From: Deltaproteobacteria bacterium
GTDB taxonomy: Bacteria > Desulfobacterota > Deferrimicrobia > Deferrimicrobiales > Deferrimicrobiaceae
Direction: 5' to 3'
Length of the DNA stretch: 51,553 nucleotides
NCBI GenBank assembly: GCA_016220005.1
Contig: JACRIV010000022.1
Span: 1 to 51,553, forward strand
The first letter of the stretch is position 1. Each line of letters begins with the position of its first letter. Positions 17,354-24,864 of the stretch are shown in pieces. A program made the translations under genes and the position numbers. The notes under the pieces are model-generated. The model was given only the letters and a program-made list of their open reading frames with translations. It was not told the DNA's origin and did no database searches.

Positions 17354-19858
17354 CTACTTCTTCCTGCGCGGGATGAGCTCCGCGGATATTTTCGTCGGGA
17401 TGAACCGGTCGGGCGAAAGCGTCACTCCCAGGAGCGCCGACGCGGCGTCCAGAGGCCGGACTCCCTTTCCCGTTCCATGGATGATTGTAATGAAGAGCGC
17501 GTTCCCGTTCATCATGAATTTGGACACCAGCGGCTTCAGGTCGATCGCCGACCGGGTGTCCTCCCGGTCGACCGTCGCCTCGAAGTCCGCAGAGGACGCG
17601 AGAGCCTCCCACGCCTGCGCGGCCCGTGCCGGGGTCGCCTCTTCCGGAAACCGGAAGGAGGGGAGGGCCTCGATGCGGTACGTGCAGGCGAGGTCGAAAT
17701 CGGAGAGGCGGGCCCCCCCGGGAGGCTCGTTGCGGGCGGAGACGACCGCTACCCCGTCGGGCAGGACCGGCGGCAGTTTCCGTTCGATCTCCGCGGCGGT
17801 GACAGGCAGCGAGAACTCCGCCTCCAAATACTCGGACAGGCTCGATGTTCCCACGGGCAGGGCTGGGGAAAAGGACAGGCGGGGGGCGGGGTTGAACCCC
17901 TGGCTGTAGGCCACCGGGAGCCCAGCGCGGCGCAGGGCGCGCCCCCACAGGGACTGGATCTCCAGCCCCGAGAGGAAACGCGCCGGCCCCTCCTTCGCGT
18001 ATCGGATGCGGACGATGTGGCGCCCGGAAGGCGCCGCCGGAACGGCAGCGCCTCCCGGCGTTCCCGCCGCCGGCGGAGGCGCCGTTTCTTCGGCCTGCGC
18101 GAGAGAGGAGTACGTGACGTTCGAGAGCCCGGGGGGGCAGGCGCCGCAGGCGGAGCATCCGCCGGCGCGGCAGTCGGGGGTCGCCTTCCCGGTGCGCGCC
18201 TTCTCCCGCTCGTCGAGGAGGAACGCGCGGTCGATCCCGGCGTCCACGAAGTCCCACGGAAGGGGACCGGCCGGGTCCCGCTCCCCGAGATACGGCAGGC
18301 CGTCGATCACTTCCTGGTCGAACGCCGCCCGCCACGCCTCGGGGCGGAACGATTCGGTCCAGGCGTCGAACCGCGCGCCGAGCCGGTAGGCCCGCAGGAT
18401 GACGCCGGACAGCCGTGCATCCCCCCGGGAGAAGATCCCTTCGAGCACGGAGACCTCCGGGGAGTGGAACTTCACCTCCACGTTCCGGTCGCGGGCGACC
18501 TCCTTCCGGACGATCGCCACGCGCTCCTCGATCTCCTCCCTTCCGATCTGCCGTTCCCACTGGAACGGCGTGTGCGGCTTGGGCACGAAGGCCGAGAGGC
18601 TGAGCGTAATCGTGTTCCGCCTTCCGTGACGGCGCGCGATTCCCGCCACCTTCCGGGCGAGCATCCCGATCGCCGCGACGTCCCCGGCCGTCTCACCGGG
18701 GAGCCCGACCATGAAGTAGAGCTTGATGCTCCGCCACCCGTTGCCGAAGATCCAGTCGGCGGACCGGAGCAGCTCCTCGTCCCGGATGTCCTTGTTGACG
18801 GACTGCCGGAGCCGTTCCGTGCCCGCTTCCGGCGCCAGCGTGAACCCGGTCTTCCGGACCTTCCGGATCTGGCGGACGGTGTTCTCGCGGAGGGCGTCGA
18901 GCCGGAGGGAGGGCAGCGAAACGGAGATCCGCTCGGGCGAGAGCGTCTCCATCGCCTCCGCGATCAGGCGGTCGATGCAGCCGTAATCCGCGGCCGACAG
19001 GGAGAGGAGGCCGACTTCGTCGTATCCGGTCCTTGGCGCCACCTCCTGCAGGTAACGCAGGAGGAGGAGAGGGTCCCTTTCCCGGACGGGCCGGTAGACG
19101 TATCCCGCCTGGCAGAACCGGCACCCCCTCGTGCACCCGCGGGAGATCTCGACGCTCAGGCGGTCGTGGACAACGCGCATCGCGGGCAGGATCGGGGCGG
19201 GGATCAGGGGTGACTTCGCAAGGTCCGGCAGGACGCGCCGGGCGACGCGCCGGGAGACGCCGGGGACGTACACCCCCTCGATCCGGGAGAGGGCGCGCAG
19301 CAGGGCCTCCCGCCCTTCGTAACGCCGCTTCCACGCCTCCACGCAGGATAGGATCTCCAGGACCGCCTCCTCGCCGTCTCCCACCAGGAGCGCGTCGAAG
19401 AACGCCTCGACGGGCGCCGGGTTGAGGGTGCACACCCCGCCGCCCAGGACGAGCGGGTCCTTCTCTCCGCGCTCCCGGCGGAGCAGGGGGATCCCGGACA
19501 GGTCGAGCATGGCGAGGACGTTCGTGTAGGTCAGCTCGTAGCAGAGGGAGAATCCGAAAATGTCGAAGTCCCTCGCCGGCCGCCCGGATTCGAGGGAGCA
19601 AAGCGGCATTGCGTTCGAACGGAGGTGCTCCTCCATGTCGCGCCAGGGAGCGAAGACGCGCTCGCAAAGCGTTTCAGGACGGGAGTTCAGGATCTCGTGG
19701 AGCAGCAGGATTCCCAGGTGGGACATCCCGATTTCGTACACGTCGGGAAACGCCAGCAGGATCCGGATATTCGCATCCTCCCAGGGGAGGAGCGCGCGCC
19801 GGACCTCGCTCCCGCTGTAGCGGGAAGGTTTCTGGACATTCGGAGGAATGGTTCTCAT
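17354..19858 (-). CDS. B12-binding-type radical SAM protein fused to a DUF2344 domain
   Basis: 834 aa. The N-terminal part resembles the TIGR03960 family: a cobalamin-binding-like Rossmann region followed by a radical SAM core with the cluster motif CTRGCRFC (Cys242, 246, 249). After about residue 560 comes a Cys-rich link (CRAGGCSACGACPPG) and then the TIGR03936/DUF2344 domain (RIRYAKEGPARFLSGLE, SQGFNPAPRLSF). The two parts are separate genes in some bacteria. The activity is unknown; proximity to RNase G genes suggests RNA or ribosome modification, but this is inference. AGGAAAA precedes the ATG. It is divergent from the ATPase-kinase gene across 66 AT-rich bases. Confidence 0.9.
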   Translation of the reverse strand: MRTIPPNVQKPSRYSGSEVRRALLPWEDANIRILLAFPDVYEIGMSHLGILLLHEILNSRPETLCERVFAPWRDMEEHLRSNAMPLCSLESGRPARDFDIFGFSLCYELTYTNVLAMLDLSGIPLLRRERGEKDPLVLGGGVCTLNPAPVEAFFDALLVGDGEEAVLEILSCVEAWKRRYEGREALLRALSRIEGVYVPGVSRRVARRVLPDLAKSPLIPAPILPAMRVVHDRLSVEISRGCTRGCRFCQAGYVYRPVRERDPLLLLRYLQEVAPRTGYDEVGLLSLSAADYGCIDRLIAEAMETLSPERISVSLPSLRLDALRENTVRQIRKVRKTGFTLAPEAGTERLRQSVNKDIRDEELLRSADWIFGNGWRSIKLYFMVGLPGETAGDVAAIGMLARKVAGIARRHGRRNTITLSLSAFVPKPHTPFQWERQIGREEIEERVAIVRKEVARDRNVEVKFHSPEVSVLEGIFSRGDARLSGVILRAYRLGARFDAWTESFRPEAWRAAFDQEVIDGLPYLGERDPAGPLPWDFVDAGIDRAFLLDEREKARTGKATPDCRAGGCSACGACPPGLSNVTYSSLAQAEETAPPPAAGTPGGAAVPAAPSGRHIVRIRYAKEGPARFLSGLEIQSLWGRALRRAGLPVAYSQGFNPAPRLSFSPALPVGTSSLSEYLEAEFSLPVTAAEIERKLPPVLPDGVAVVSARNEPPGGARLSDFDLACTYRIEALPSFRFPEEATPARAAQAWEALASSADFEATVDREDTRSAIDLKPLVSKFMMNGNALFITIIHGTGKGVRPLDAASALLGVTLSPDRFIPTKISAELIPRRKK

Positions 19859-19884: not shown

Positions 19885-19913
19885 TTGAAAAATCAATGGT
19901 TTCAAGTTAAATT
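19885..19913 (+). promoter_or_regulatory. Predicted sigma70-type promoter of the ATPase/STAS/HD-GYP operon
   Basis: TTGAAA (19885-19890), 17 bases, TAAATT (19908-19913) in an AT-rich gap of an otherwise GC-rich region. Predicted start near 19920 leaves only about five bases before the ATG at 19925. The TTGAAA/TTTCAA pair (19885-19905) is also an imperfect palindrome that could serve the divergent radical SAM gene or a regulator. Confidence 0.5.
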
Positions 19914-19924
19914 AGGACGATGAC

Positions 19925-22243
19925 ATGCGCGACAGGAGTCGCCCTGCAGTGCGTCTGATATGGAACCGGGGAGCCGGCTTCTCGTTCCGGCCGGAGGAAT
20001 TCTACGGCCGGGAGGAAGAGCTGACTACCCTCATGCGGGTGTGCCTCGAGGGGAAGTCCGGGATCGGAGCGTCCGTGATGATCTACGGGCCCCCGAACAT
20101 CGGAAAGACCTCCCTTCTTCTGAAGCTGAAACACGAACTCCAGTCCCTCCCGGAAGCGGCCTCGCCGCCGCGCCCCTTCCCCTTCTACTTCTCGTTCAGC
20201 AAGATCCTTTCCCATCCCCTGGCCCTTTCCCAGCATTTCCTGCAGGAGTTCCTGTGGCAGGTTCTGGTGTTTCTCGGGGAGTCCCCGCCGGCGGCGTTCG
20301 ACGCCGAGGCAATGTGCGAGAGCCTGGGGACTTACGGGCTGACCGATTACCGCGAATGCCTGGACGCCCATCGCCGGCACTCGGAGGGAGGCGACGGCCT
20401 CTCCGCGCTGGTGAACGCCTTTTCCTTCCCGTTCACGTTCGGGGGAGGGATCTTCTACCCCGTTTTCCTCTTCGACGACTTCCAGTATACGTGCAAACTG
20501 CAGAACATTCCCGACGGCGCCATCCTTTCGATCCTGCGGCCGTACATCAAGTCCGGGCATTACCCCATGGTCATCTCGGGTTCCTCGCCGGGTCACGTGA
20601 CGTCCTCCCTCAAGCGGGAAGGGCTGTTCGGCTCGTTCCATCTGATGGAAATCGACGGCCTCTCGCCGGCGGCCTCGGAGAGGCTGTGGGCTTTCCTCTT
20701 CGAACGGCGGAAGGTCCGGATGCCCGGCCACATCCAGGCGCGCGCCTCGGCGAGGCTGGGCCACGTGCCGATCTACCAGCGGATGTTCGCCGAGGAGATT
20801 TCGTTCCGCAACGCGCAGATCGCCGACGAGGTCGGTTTCGAGAACCTGTTCGCCCTCTCCGTCACCGAGGGGCAGCTCAACCGGTACTGGCGCGAGTTCT
20901 TCGAGAACGCCTTCCCGGACCGCATCCAGCGCGCCCGGGCCATCAAGTTCCTGAAGCGTGTCATGTGCGATCAGTTCCCCCTCGACACCTTCGAGGGAGC
21001 GCTCTCCCTTCTTGGGACCTCCACCGAGGAGGGGGGGAAGATTTTGTCGTCGCTCGAGTTCAAGGGGCTGATGAAATCCGATTTCGAGCACCTCCGATTC
21101 ATCGGCGATCCCGTGTTGGCCGACTTCCTCTTCTGGGGGTTCGAGCGTGGCGTCCTCGGGAAGAGCTCCTCCCAGGTCGCCGCCGCACTGGTGCAGTCCA
21201 AGCTGTCCCGCGCGGCGCCCGCCCCGGAGGTCGGGGACCGGGAGAGGTGGGTCGCCGTCATCAAGGAGCTGATGCGGAGATGGGACCGTCGCGAGGTCCC
21301 GACGCTCCTGTTCCGCTTCGGCGGTTTCCGGGAAAAGTTCGAGGGAAAAGGGCTCCTGGAGGTGGTGATCGGGATGGAGAAGGAGCAGCAGAAGCTTCGG
21401 CTCCCCAAGATCAGCTCCGTCTCGACGGGCTACAGGACCCGCCGCGGCGGGCCCCGCTTCGATTTCGACCTCGTGGCCTACGGGTTCCTCGACGCGGACT
21501 TCTCCGAGGAGAACCTGGTGATCTGGGCGGTGGACGTGACGACGGAGAAGACGCTCGGCGTCACGGCGGTGGAGCACTTCGAGAATCGCTGCCGGCTGCT
21601 GGGCCTGGAGAAAGGACTGCGCCCGGAGCAGCTCCGGAAGTGGATCCTGTTCGAGGGATCGGTCGATCCCGCGGCGGTCGACCGGGTTGCGCAGCACGAC
21701 ATCTACCTTACGCACCGCTCCCAGATGCGTCTCTTCCTGAACCTTTTCGACATGGAGGAGATCGCCTTCGGCCCCGAGGCGCAGAAGACGGTCGAGGTTC
21801 CGCAGGGATCGGAGCCGCTGGAATTCGAGCTGGTGCTGCCGATGAAGGCGGACACGGAGGTCGTCGCGGCCCGCGTGGCGGAGGAGATTGCGGCTTACGC
21901 ATCCCTCGACAAGGACACGGTCGACCGGATCAAGATGGCGCTCATCGAGGCGTGCATCAACGCGTTCGAGCACAGCGGGGCCGAGTCGGGGAAGGTTCGG
22001 CTGCGGTATATCCTCTCCCCCGAGAAGATCGAGCTCTACGTCCAGGACGAAGGGAAGGGCTTCCGCGGCGGGGGGCCGGCGGAGGAGCCTAAGCGCAACA
22101 GGGGGTGGGGCCTGAAGCTCATCCGGGAGCTCGTGGACGACGTGGAGATCATGACGGGCGAAAGGGGAACCATCGTCAGGATGGTGAAGTTCCTCGGTCC
22201 CGAATCCGACAAGGAGGGAGCGGGGCCTCCGGGTCCCGAGTGA
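19925..22243 (+). CDS. AAA/ATPase_2-like ATPase fused to a C-terminal RsbW-type histidine-kinase-like ATPase
   Basis: 772 aa. N-terminal P-loop domain: FYGREEEL, Walker A GPPNIGKTS (55-63), Walker B VFLFDDF (180-186), sensor-like VISGSSPG. A winged-helix-like part follows (about 320-410, ending FIGDPVLADFLFWGF), as in archaeal-type ATPase_2/DUF234 proteins. The middle contains FDFDLVAYGF (Asp513, Asp515) and VDVTTEK (537-542), spaced like a PD-(D/E)xK nuclease core, though this is a weak match. From about 633 there is an RsbW-type GHKL domain: N box EACINAFEH (Asn679), G1 DEGKGF (Asp708), G2 GWGLKLI. A STAS gene starts six bases downstream and an HD-GYP gene follows. Likely role: a switch coupling an ATPase sensor to phosphorylation of the STAS protein. 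Confidence 0.75.
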   Translation: MRDRSRPAVRLIWNRGAGFSFRPEEFYGREEELTTLMRVCLEGKSGIGASVMIYGPPNIGKTSLLLKLKHELQSLPEAASPPRPFPFYFSFSKILSHPLALSQHFLQEFLWQVLVFLGESPPAAFDAEAMCESLGTYGLTDYRECLDAHRRHSEGGDGLSALVNAFSFPFTFGGGIFYPVFLFDDFQYTCKLQNIPDGAILSILRPYIKSGHYPMVISGSSPGHVTSSLKREGLFGSFHLMEIDGLSPAASERLWAFLFERRKVRMPGHIQARASARLGHVPIYQRMFAEEISFRNAQIADEVGFENLFALSVTEGQLNRYWREFFENAFPDRIQRARAIKFLKRVMCDQFPLDTFEGALSLLGTSTEEGGKILSSLEFKGLMKSDFEHLRFIGDPVLADFLFWGFERGVLGKSSSQVAAALVQSKLSRAAPAPEVGDRERWVAVIKELMRRWDRREVPTLLFRFGGFREKFEGKGLLEVVIGMEKEQQKLRLPKISSVSTGYRTRRGGPRFDFDLVAYGFLDADFSEENLVIWAVDVTTEKTLGVTAVEHFENRCRLLGLEKGLRPEQLRKWILFEGSVDPAAVDRVAQHDIYLTHRSQMRLFLNLFDMEEIAFGPEAQKTVEVPQGSEPLEFELVLPMKADTEVVAARVAEEIAAYASLDKDTVDRIKMALIEACINAFEHSGAESGKVRLRYILSPEKIELYVQDEGKGFRGGGPAEEPKRNRGWGLKLIRELVDDVEIMTGERGTIVRMVKFLGPESDKEGAGPPGPE

Positions 22244-22249
22244 GAGCCA

Positions 22250-22603
22250 GTGAGCTACTTGACGATCAGGACGCGCACGGCGGGCGATGCGCTCGTCGTG
22301 TACATCGACGGGTACCTGAACAGCCTCATGGGCGAGGAAGTGGAGCGGGTCGTCCAGGACACTCTCGACGCCGGCGGCAGGAAGGTCCTCCTGAACTTCG
22401 AGGGGACGAAGCTGATCAACAGCATCGGGATCTCGATCATCATCGGAATCGTGGAGAAGATCATGGAGCGCAACGGGGTGCTCGCCTTCTGCTCCCTTTC
22501 CCGCATCAACAGGGAGCTGTTCCAGATGACCGGGGTCGCCCGGTACGTCCACGCCTACGACATGGAGGAGGAGGCTCTTGGATATTTCGGTCATTCCGCC
22601 TGA
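22250..22603 (+). CDS. STAS-domain anti-sigma factor antagonist (SpoIIAA/RsbV-like)
   Basis: 117 aa, nearly a bare STAS domain. GDALVVYIDGYLNS forms the first strands, and KLINSIGISIIIG carries Ser58 at the position phosphorylated by RsbW-type kinases. GTG start six bases after the upstream stop. The preceding gene ends in an RsbW-type kinase domain, so the two form a natural kinase-substrate pair. No sigma factor gene is present, so the final target may be the HD-GYP protein or another partner. Its 3' end overlaps the HD-GYP start by 26 bases. Confidence 0.85.
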   Translation: MSYLTIRTRTAGDALVVYIDGYLNSLMGEEVERVVQDTLDAGGRKVLLNFEGTKLINSIGISIIIGIVEKIMERNGVLAFCSLSRINRELFQMTGVARYVHAYDMEEEALGYFGHSA

Positions 22604-23882
22604 GATCGGCCTTTTCGAGGCGAAGCCCCCGCCTCCTGCGGGCGGGCGGGAGATCTTCAAGCTCAGGGCGCTGCGGGACTTCACCCTGTGCTTCGCGCGG
22701 GGCCGCGACTTCGACGAATCCCTCCGGCTCGCCCTCATGGTCGTCCTGGGGACCTGTTCCATCGCGAAGGGAGCCCTGTTCCTGGAGGAGGACGGCGAGT
22801 TCCGGGTACAGGTCTCCCGGGGGCTTCCGCCGGGGATCCCCCCGCTCGAGGAATCGCGGAACCTGCTCATGTCGCTGCGGCGCGCGGTCCGGCCCGTCTG
22901 CGTGAATCGCCGCGCGACGGCCGCCGCGATCAGGAAGGCGGTCGCCGAAGTCGAGCGGGCCGTGCCCGCGTTTCCGGTGGAATACCTGTGCCCCCTCGGC
23001 ACGAAGAACGGCCCCCTGGGGTTCCTCCTTCTCGGTTGCCCGATCACCGGGGAAGGTCTCACCGTGCGGCAGCGGGAAACCTTAAGCGTGATGGCGTCCA
23101 TCCTGTCCTCCTATATCACCAACCAGCGCGTGGTGCGGGATATGTCCCGCCTGAACGACGTCCTCCGGTTCCAGGTGCAGGAGAACGAGCGCCTGCTCGA
23201 GGGGATGCAGGAGATCTATCTCGACACCATCCGCGCGCTGGCGACCGCCGTCGAGGCCAAGGACCCGTACACCCGGGGGCATTCCGAGCGCGTCGCGAAG
23301 ATCTCGGTGTCCATCGCCAAGGGGCTTATGCTCCCCGAAAAGGACATCCAGGCGGTCCGCATCGCCTCCATCCTCCACGACGTCGGCAAGATCGGGACCT
23401 CCCGGTCCATCCTGACCAAGCCCTCCTCCCTGACCGCGGAGGAGCGGGAGGAGATCCGGAAGCACCCACGGGTGAGCTTCGACATCCTCTCGGAGATCCG
23501 GTTCCCCTATCCGAACGTCGCGCTCCTGGCGAGGGGCCACCACGAATGGCTGGACGGCTCGGGCTACCCGGACGGTAAGCGGGAGCCCCAGATCCCCGTG
23601 GGGGCGCGCATCATCGCCCTGGCGGACGCCTTCGACGCCATGGTCTCCGACCGTCCCTACCGCTCCAGCCTGACGCTGCTGCATGCCCTGGGGGAGATCC
23701 GTGCCTGCCTGCACAGCCACTACGACGCCGGCGTCGCCCGGATGTTCTTCCGGCACGTGCGGAGGGAGGTAACGGGCGAACTGCCCGACGGCCCCGTGCT
23801 CACGGGGCTGGTGAAGGGCTATTCGCGCACGGACGCCGTCGAGTTCATCGACCGGGCGCTCCGGGAGCTCGGACCCAACTGA
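22578..23882 (+). CDS. GAF-like plus HD-GYP domain protein (predicted cyclic-di-GMP phosphodiesterase)
   Basis: 434 aa. Residues of about 25-200 look like a GAF sensor (LRLALMVVLGTCSIAKGALFL, in family blocks LALMVVLGT and KGALFLEEDG; GPLGFLLLG). A coiled linker (about 205-225) leads to the HD-GYP domain: HSERVAKIS, ILHDVGKIG (His267-Asp268), HHEWLDGSGYP (321-331), DAFDAMVSDRPYR. All usual metal ligands and the GYP motif are present, so c-di-GMP hydrolysis is likely. TTG start at 22578 with GGAGGAGGAGG just upstream, overlapping the STAS gene. Its stop lies in the first copy of the direct repeat at 23871. Confidence 0.85.
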   Translation: MDISVIPPEIGLFEAKPPPPAGGREIFKLRALRDFTLCFARGRDFDESLRLALMVVLGTCSIAKGALFLEEDGEFRVQVSRGLPPGIPPLEESRNLLMSLRRAVRPVCVNRRATAAAIRKAVAEVERAVPAFPVEYLCPLGTKNGPLGFLLLGCPITGEGLTVRQRETLSVMASILSSYITNQRVVRDMSRLNDVLRFQVQENERLLEGMQEIYLDTIRALATAVEAKDPYTRGHSERVAKISVSIAKGLMLPEKDIQAVRIASILHDVGKIGTSRSILTKPSSLTAEEREEIRKHPRVSFDILSEIRFPYPNVALLARGHHEWLDGSGYPDGKREPQIPVGARIIALADAFDAMVSDRPYRSSLTLLHALGEIRACLHSHYDAGVARMFFRHVRREVTGELPDGPVLTGLVKGYSRTDAVEFIDRALRELGPN

Positions 23883-24050
23883 TTAGGGTAGATTGGCGGA
23901 GGGTCCGAGCTCCGAGGGGCCGCCGACCGATCAGGGAGGAACAGCCGGCATGGATGCCGGCGGCAGGCCCCGAGGCGGGCGGCGCAGCGAACCCACGGAT
24001 GGGTGAGCGCGAGCCGCCGGACCCAACTGATTAGGGTAGATTGACGGAGG
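23871..24050. repeat. Direct-repeat-flanked hairpin element (family C)
   Basis: Two 32-base direct repeats (23871-23902 and 24019-24050, one mismatch; core CTGATTAGGGTAGATTG) flank 116 bases. These contain a perfect small hairpin CCGGCAT-GG-ATGCCGG (near 23945-23960) and a long imperfect one at 23978-24018 with stem ACCCA/TGGGT inside GGCGGC...GCCGCC. The first repeat includes the stop of the HD-GYP gene. There is no coding potential. It resembles the interior of dispersed structured repeats, with AGCGAACCCA...TGGGTGAGCGCGAG at its core. Confidence 0.7.
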
Positions 24051-24069
24051 AAGCCGGAGCGCGAGCGGG

Positions 24070-24864
24070 CTAGCAGCCCCCAAGATCCGCCAGAAGGGAC
24101 CGGAGGGCCGAAAGTCCCCGGTGGAAGTGCTCTATTCGGTGGGGCTCCAGGGTCAGGATGGGGGACGCCCCGGCGTCCAGGGCGGCAAGGAGGACGCCGC
24201 GGAAGTTGATCGATCCCTCGCCCACCGGGAGGTGATCGTCCCTCAGGCCCCGGTTGTCGTGGATGTGCATCTCCCTGATCCCGGGGCCGAACGCCTCCAC
24301 CCACTTGTGGACAGGGACGCGGGAGAACAGGGTTGCGTGTCCCGCGTCGAGGCAGAACCCCAGGCGCTTCGACCCGATCGCCTCGCTCAAGCGGAGCAGA
24401 TGGTCGGGAACCTCGTCGAACACGTTCTCCACGAAAAGATCGACTCCGTGCGCCTCCGCCGTCTCGAGGACCTCCTCGAAGGTCCTCCTTGCGGGCTCGA
24501 ACCACTTGTCCGGGTCGTGGTCGAAGATCCAGCCGGAGTAACCGCCGTGGATCACGATCCCGCGGGGACGGAAGGCCGGTGCGAGCGCCACCGCCTGCCG
24601 CAGCCGGCGGACCGCCAGACGGCGGGCCTCCTCGTCGCGGGCGCCCGGCCAGATGTCCTCGAAAGGCGCATGGAACGTAACGCTTCGGACACCCGCCCTT
24701 ACGAGGGCCTCCCCGGCGGTTTCCGCGCGGCGCGGCGCAAGGGAATCGAGCACGTTGCCCGAAAAGTAGATTTCGGGACCGACGCCGAGCTCGGCGATGA
24801 AGCGCGCCGTATCGGCCGCCTCCAGCATCGGGAAGGGAACGGTTGCGTGGATGGTCCAGTCCAT
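24070..24864 (-). CDS. Xylose isomerase-like TIM-barrel protein (sugar phosphate isomerase/epimerase family)
   Basis: 264 aa. Metal-site segments of the family are in order: VTFHAPF, GIVIHGGY, FVENVFDE (Glu), CLDAGHA (Asp/His), MHIHDNRGLRDDHLPVGEG and LTLEPH (final Glu). These fit an endonuclease IV/sugar-epimerase-type barrel. The substrate cannot be deduced. It is divergent from the GntR regulator across 136 bases that contain a palindromic operator candidate, so it may be in the same regulon, although it is not part of the selA operon. It lies downstream of repeat C. Confidence 0.75.
   Translation of the reverse strand: MDWTIHATVPFPMLEAADTARFIAELGVGPEIYFSGNVLDSLAPRRAETAGEALVRAGVRSVTFHAPFEDIWPGARDEEARRLAVRRLRQAVALAPAFRPRGIVIHGGYSGWIFDHDPDKWFEPARRTFEEVLETAEAHGVDLFVENVFDEVPDHLLRLSEAIGSKRLGFCLDAGHATLFSRVPVHKWVEAFGPGIREMHIHDNRGLRDDHLPVGEGSINFRGVLLAALDAGASPILTLEPHRIEHFHRGLSALRSLLADLGGC

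Follow-up and report, generated by a model that had tools for sequence, protein, structure and literature searches.

A predicted partner switch combining a STAND-like ATPase-kinase fusion, a STAS protein and an HD-GYP protein in a deltaproteobacterial genome

All partner switches tied to cyclic di-GMP (c-di-GMP) that were found in the literature, namely SiaABCD, HsbRAD, BgrUVW-BgrR and MtT-MtG, use cyclases (PMC7647112, PMC5085249, PMC12143880), and the literature search returned no paper joining 'partner switching', HD-GYP and STAS. A three-gene locus was analysed here in a 51,553-nucleotide stretch of contig JACRIV010000022.1 from a Deltaproteobacteria bacterium (hereafter the window). Its first gene encodes a fusion of a P-loop ATPase with an RsbW-type serine kinase, followed by genes for a STAS protein and a predicted HD-GYP c-di-GMP phosphodiesterase. 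A partner switch connected with c-di-GMP is already known; the new elements here are the fusion with a STAND-like ATPase, the phosphodiesterase in the operon and the absence of a PP2C phosphatase. The first-pass annotation of this DNA had named the same three genes at the same positions, and its statement that no described system carries such an ATPase in front agrees with the literature searched. With a probability of roughly 0.6, we consider the locus to encode a partner switch that is gated by a STAND/ATPase_2-like ATPase and acts on c-di-GMP enzymes.

The C-terminal domain of the fusion was assigned to the RsbW/SpoIIAB family of GHKL serine kinases, with the N, G1 and G2 boxes all present. 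Pfam HATPase_c_2 matched residues 647–755 with 80 bits, a profile of 28 homologs retrieved RsbW (6M36) from the PDB with an E value of 3e-21, and the nearest NCBIfam families were RsbW and SpoIIAB. The second protein matched Pfam STAS with 42.9 bits and SpoIIAA as the best NCBIfam family. Alignment with SpoIIAA placed Ser58 at the phospho-serine position, and this residue was kept in all aligned STAS relatives except one carrying Thr. Both the alignment and the conservation uphold the earlier reading of a cognate STAS protein with a phosphorylatable serine at position 58.

The N-terminus of the fusion passed the Pfam cut-off for AAA_16 (36.6 against 32.6 bits) and fell below that for ATPase_2 (24.7 against 33.2 bits). 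The AlphaFold model of the fusion had a mean predicted local distance difference test score (pLDDT) of 79.7, and the top Foldseek matches were the archaeal ATPases 2QEN and 2FNA, followed by nucleotide-binding leucine-rich repeat (NLR) resistosomes, Cdc6/Orc1 and RsbW. Since 2QEN and 2FNA came first by fold and the Walker A and B motifs were invariant, the N-terminus could be confirmed as a P-loop ATPase of the ATPase_2 type. The domain calls of the first-pass annotation held in this respect, but it had overlooked a PD-(D/E)XK-like domain in the middle of the protein. Folded alone, this domain reached a pLDDT of 82, and most of its top Foldseek matches were restriction-endonuclease-like (1Y88, AspBHI, MspJI, Can2/Card1 and RPB5), with E values of only about 2e-3. 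It can be read as a putative pseudo-nuclease, because the usual catalytic residues were not conserved in the homolog alignment. No Pfam match was obtained for a C-terminal DUF234 (PF03008), but the protein has this PD-(D/E)XK-like fold at a marginal E value. PADLOC models for anti-phage defence matched neither the ATPase nor the STAS protein and gave only weak HD-domain cross-matches of the HD-GYP protein to Cas3 models; a role as a defence system was rejected.

The dependence of the kinase on STAS could be assessed in a natural test. In two genomes of one genus (G017 and G018), the STAS gene and the next gene are gone, and a GntR gene adjoins the ATPase gene. The kinase domains of both have lost the G1 or G2 motifs, and the two proteins share 76% identity in the ATPase, 80% in the pseudo-nuclease and 54% in the kinase. 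Between the window and the homologs that keep STAS, kinase identity was above ATPase identity by 3 to 19 points. A third member of the genus (G019) keeps STAS and has an intact kinase. Since the kinase decayed beside a conserved ATPase in the first two genomes and remained intact in the third, the loss of STAS appears to have lifted constraint from the kinase alone, a co-decay that bears out the proposed kinase-STAS dependence.

The fusion was present in 24 of the 26 genomes of the window's class, and its distribution in the phylum was patchy, as 23 of 394 genomes in an even draw carried it. Full-length relatives with 22–26% identity also came up in a collection scan; they are carried by a Rokubacterium, a member of the Brocadiaceae and further metagenome-assembled genomes that bear the label Deltaproteobacteria. 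The sequence reached far enough downstream at 21 distant loci, and the ATPase-kinase, STAS and HD-GYP genes followed one another in this order at every one of them. This conservation across lineages agrees with the single functional unit first proposed, and a local or chance arrangement was rejected on the same ground. Neither of the two findings named in the first-pass annotation as refuting it, an N-terminus outside this ATPase class or a gene order kept in no relative, was obtained. The first-pass annotation had not noticed that many relatives have a fourth gene: a GAF-GGDEF gene lies directly before the ATPase gene in 20 of the 21 distant loci, in most cases with an overlap of some 10 bases, and the Brocadiaceae locus is the sole exception. 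The GGEEF motif was intact in seven of seven distant cyclases checked, and four of the five distant GAF-GGDEF proteins examined contained a PocR sensor domain. No diguanylate cyclase gene is present in the window's operon, and a genome of family f2 within the class (G025) likewise has the HD-GYP gene and no upstream GGDEF gene. The link to c-di-GMP is strengthened because a GGDEF gene precedes most distant copies.

The third protein matched Pfam HD_5 with 124.8 bits and aligned through all motifs with PmGH (4MCW) and with a 3'3'-cGAMP phosphodiesterase (5Z7C), so that the full set of catalytic residues claimed earlier was verified. The GAF part, also claimed, was below the Pfam threshold in the window protein and could be detected in orthologs. 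The HD-GYP gene occurs in family f2 and in every distant locus with enough downstream sequence, and is for this reason regarded as ancestral. Two or three losses of the gene occurred within the class, in genomes whose kinase and STAS motifs are for the most part preserved. The half of the class without HD-GYP at the locus had no ortholog elsewhere in the genome at E ≤ 1e-50, and relocation of the gene was rejected. The HD-GYP protein is a probable old output of the switch, and its link would be older but looser than that between kinase and STAS. The idea that STAS phosphorylation controls c-di-GMP breakdown gained support for its c-di-GMP part through the distant GGDEF genes; the part on breakdown is less secure, as HD-GYP is missing in half of the class with kinase and STAS mostly intact.

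Beyond the fusion, the kinase and STAS proteins have many free-standing relatives, likewise paired and marked by the motifs EACINAFEH and NSIG. A SpoIIE PP2C was encoded at 40 of 46 such loci. The loci from Bacteroidota and Marinimicrobia often add a class III cyclase with GAF/PAS domains, and Sericytochromatia-like loci add a GGDEF protein. In the kinase tree, the free-standing kinases formed one clade (support 95/91) once L071, which is truncated by the end of its contig and followed by HD-GYP, was recounted as fused on the existing tree. As they form a single clade on this count, one fusion event would suffice; two separate fusions were rejected, because the two changes of the 'fused' label on the tree rest on this contig-edge exception. 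As a separate observation, free-standing kinases with an NSIG-type STAS adjoin a class III nucleotide cyclase with GAF/PAS domains at L069, L080-L087, L089-L092 and L095, where SpoIIE proteins are also encoded close by; this arrangement may possibly represent a cyclic AMP/cyclic GMP counterpart of the switch. At four Sericytochromatia/Cyanobacteria-like loci (L053, L056, L062 and L063), the pair is followed by a close GGDEF protein, and no SpoIIE was present in the fetched locus.

A phosphatase for the STAS protein was searched for genome-wide with two families in draft genomes. SpoIIE-type PP2C was absent in 25 of the 26 class genomes, the exception being a weak match, and in 15 of 17 distant holders of the fusion, while PP2C_2 was found in 4 of 27 genomes tested. 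The search works, since the controls gave matches in Bacillus, Synechococcus and others. The pattern of absence is too consistent for assembly gaps, and a PP2C of these two families encoded elsewhere in the genome was rejected for most of the genomes. The earlier annotation had recognized the parts of the switch but had overlooked this absence, which leaves dephosphorylation unexplained.

In the proposed mechanism, a signal would be read by the P-loop ATPase, helical and pseudo-nuclease parts, resulting in a changed nucleotide state or assembly, as suggested by the fold class and the invariant Walker motifs. The changed state would gate the C-terminal kinase, which would then bind STAS and phosphorylate Ser58; the motifs and the co-decay argue strongly for this step. 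Free or phosphorylated STAS would bind c-di-GMP enzymes, the HD-GYP protein here and both the GGDEF cyclase and the HD-GYP protein in the distant clade, and one switch would thereby set c-di-GMP levels. Four-gene conservation and the known systems SiaABCD, HsbA-HsbD and MtT-MtG point to this output, and the free-standing relatives of the kinase-STAS pair, which also adjoin nucleotide cyclases or GGDEF proteins, support it. Genome searches show that the usual SpoIIE/RsbU phosphatase does not provide the reset. A more specific version, in which a STAND-like nucleoside triphosphatase (NTPase) directly gates the kinase of a PP2C-free switch, one STAS protein sets c-di-GMP through both the GGDEF and HD-GYP proteins of the same operon, and either cycling of the NTPase or a phosphatase that escaped recognition brings about the reset, is put forward tentatively and is rather doubtful as a whole.

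Several points weigh against this mechanism. The ATPase stays conserved without a working kinase after STAS loss, so the ATPase part would have to have a further role of its own. Since kinase and STAS are mostly intact in the lineages without HD-GYP, another output must presumably exist there, and HD-GYP would not be the sole one. The switch cycle appears to lack a known reset enzyme, as PP2C is absent. Finally, every kinase in the distant clade of fusions (L035-L051 and L055) carries Asn at the G1-box position that is Asp in the window's class and in the free-standing kinases, and this may weaken or alter ATP use in the distant clade.

Among the alternatives, the one surviving best, though improbable, is a kinase-STAS switch for another target, such as a different signalling enzyme or the sigma and anti-sigma factors of the flagellar system, with HD-GYP merely co-transcribed. 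The dispensability of HD-GYP in half of the class fits this explanation, as do the classical RsbW/RsbV proteins, which act on sigma factors, and HsbA, which also binds FlgM (PMC5085249). However, even at 22–26% identity the four genes, those for the two c-di-GMP enzymes included, keep their order, and no SigB/SigF/SigG family sigma factor was found above the TIGR02980 cut-off in the 26 class genomes, where weaker sigma-factor matches exist; control of SigB/F/G was rejected on this basis. A kinase acting as a nucleotide-gated STAS-binding adaptor, with no lasting phosphorylation and no need for a phosphatase, would account for the absence of PP2C and for the Asn in the distant G1 boxes, but the canonical G1 box in the window's class and the conserved Ser58 and N-box Glu make it quite unlikely. 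It is very improbable that HD-GYP is the reset enzyme that dephosphorylates STAS in place of PP2C, as its nature as a metal phosphohydrolase, its third place in the operon and the absence here of the PP2C seen at most free-standing loci would allow, because the substrates of HD-GYP domains are cyclic dinucleotides and the residues needed for their hydrolysis are intact, lineages without HD-GYP still have kinase and STAS, and the added GGDEF gene of distant loci points to c-di-GMP.

STAND NTPases are best known from immunity and from transcription factors. If the ATPase-gated switch is real, STAND-like NTPases would directly drive a protein kinase switch, and partner switching would reach both the synthesis and the breakdown of c-di-GMP. 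The wider kinase-STAS family, whose free-standing pairs stand by class III cyclases, GGDEF proteins and SpoIIE in many phyla, may control second messengers generally. The means by which the cycle is restored when PP2C is missing thereby becomes a question for experiment.

Table 1. Coordinates of the features of the switch locus in the window.
Feature	Position	Strand	Basis
ATPase - PD-(D/E)XK-like - RsbW-type kinase fusion, 772 aa	19925..22243	+	ATG start
P-loop ATPase core, ATPase_2/STAND-like, residues ~20-260	19982..20704	+	AAA_16 36.6 bits; fold matches 2QEN, 2FNA
Walker A GPPNIGKT, residues 55-62	20087..20110	+	G55, G60, K61 unchanged across 28 homologs
Walker B acidic pair D184 D185	20474..20479	+	Invariant (homolog alignment)
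Helical / winged-helix-like region, residues 261-430	20705..21214	+	AlphaFold secondary structure
Degenerate PD-(D/E)XK (restriction-endonuclease-like) domain, residues 432-612	21218..21760	+	AlphaFold and Foldseek
RsbW/SpoIIAB-type serine kinase domain, residues 632-757	21818..22195	+	HATPase_c_2 80 bits; RsbW 6M36 by profile
Kinase N-box EACINAFEH (E675, N679, H683)	21947..21973	+	Near-invariant in homologs
Kinase G1 box DEGKGF (D708)	22046..22063	+	Asn in distant fused clade
Kinase G2 box RGWGL	22100..22114	+	Motif alignment
STAS (SpoIIAA/RsbV-like) protein, 117 aa	22250..22603	+	GTG start
Codon of Ser58 (NSIG motif), SpoIIAA phospho-serine position	22421..22423	+	Alignment
GAF-like + HD-GYP c-di-GMP phosphodiesterase (predicted), 434 aa	22578..23882	+	TTG start
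HD-GYP catalytic domain, HD/HH/GYP motifs	23205..23762	+	Aligned to PmGH (4MCW)
Sigma-70-like promoter candidate TTGAAA-17-TAAATT	19885..19913	+	Consensus match alone, 9/12

The ATPase-kinase and STAS genes are separated by 6 bases, and the HD-GYP gene overlaps the STAS gene by 26 bases, with GGAGGAGG directly upstream of its start. The promoter claimed for the operon corresponds to a promoter-like candidate site inside the 66-bp gap to a divergent radical-SAM gene. This neighbour (17357-19858, minus strand) is a TIGR03960/TIGR03936 B12-binding radical SAM fusion, and its place beside the operon is conserved in the class, family f2 included. A CbiR-like TIM-barrel gene (24073-24864, minus strand; 75 bits, below the NCBIfam cut-off of 105) is convergent with the HD-GYP gene and lies next to the switch locus in much of the class. 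A dispersed intergenic repeat with a unit of about 120 bp (23876-24066) could be recognized as well; 33 other partial or whole copies with 72–98% identity occur in the same genome, and Rfam contained no matching family.

Compared with the described systems, the locus is similar to SiaABCD of Pseudomonas aeruginosa (PMC7647112, PMC8457831) in that a kinase and a phospho-switch protein are encoded beside a c-di-GMP enzyme, whose control is established for SiaABCD. SiaABCD differs in its PP2C, SiaA, which is missing in the window's system, in having a cyclase as output instead of a phosphodiesterase, and in its kinase SiaB, for which these papers mention no fusion to an ATPase. The NCBIfam scan gave no match to the SiaB or SiaC families, the best families being RsbW/SpoIIAB for the kinase and SpoIIAA for STAS. 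In the HptB-HsbR-HsbA-HsbD system of P. aeruginosa, the STAS-type anti-anti-sigma protein HsbA is phosphorylated at the equivalent Ser56 and binds a diguanylate cyclase; it differs from the window's system in that a response regulator, HsbR, supplies the kinase as well as the phosphatase activity, a cyclase is targeted and an ATPase is lacking (PMC5085249). Moorella MtR/S/T-MtG and Sinorhizobium BgrUVW-BgrR (per PMC7647112, PMC12143880) likewise tie RsbT/RsbW-type kinases to GGDEF enzymes, but with stressosome or PP2C-based input and with neither an ATPase fusion nor HD-GYP. Bacillus SpoIIAB-SpoIIAA and RsbW-RsbV share the kinase and STAS folds, the motifs and the phospho-serine position, whereas their targets are sigma factors, their phosphatase is SpoIIE/RsbU and their kinase is free-standing. 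In structure, the first 400 residues most resemble the archaeal ATPase_2 proteins PABY2304 (2QEN) and SSO1545 (2FNA) and STAND NTPases, and to this architecture the window protein adds the putative pseudo-nuclease and the serine kinase at its C-terminal side.

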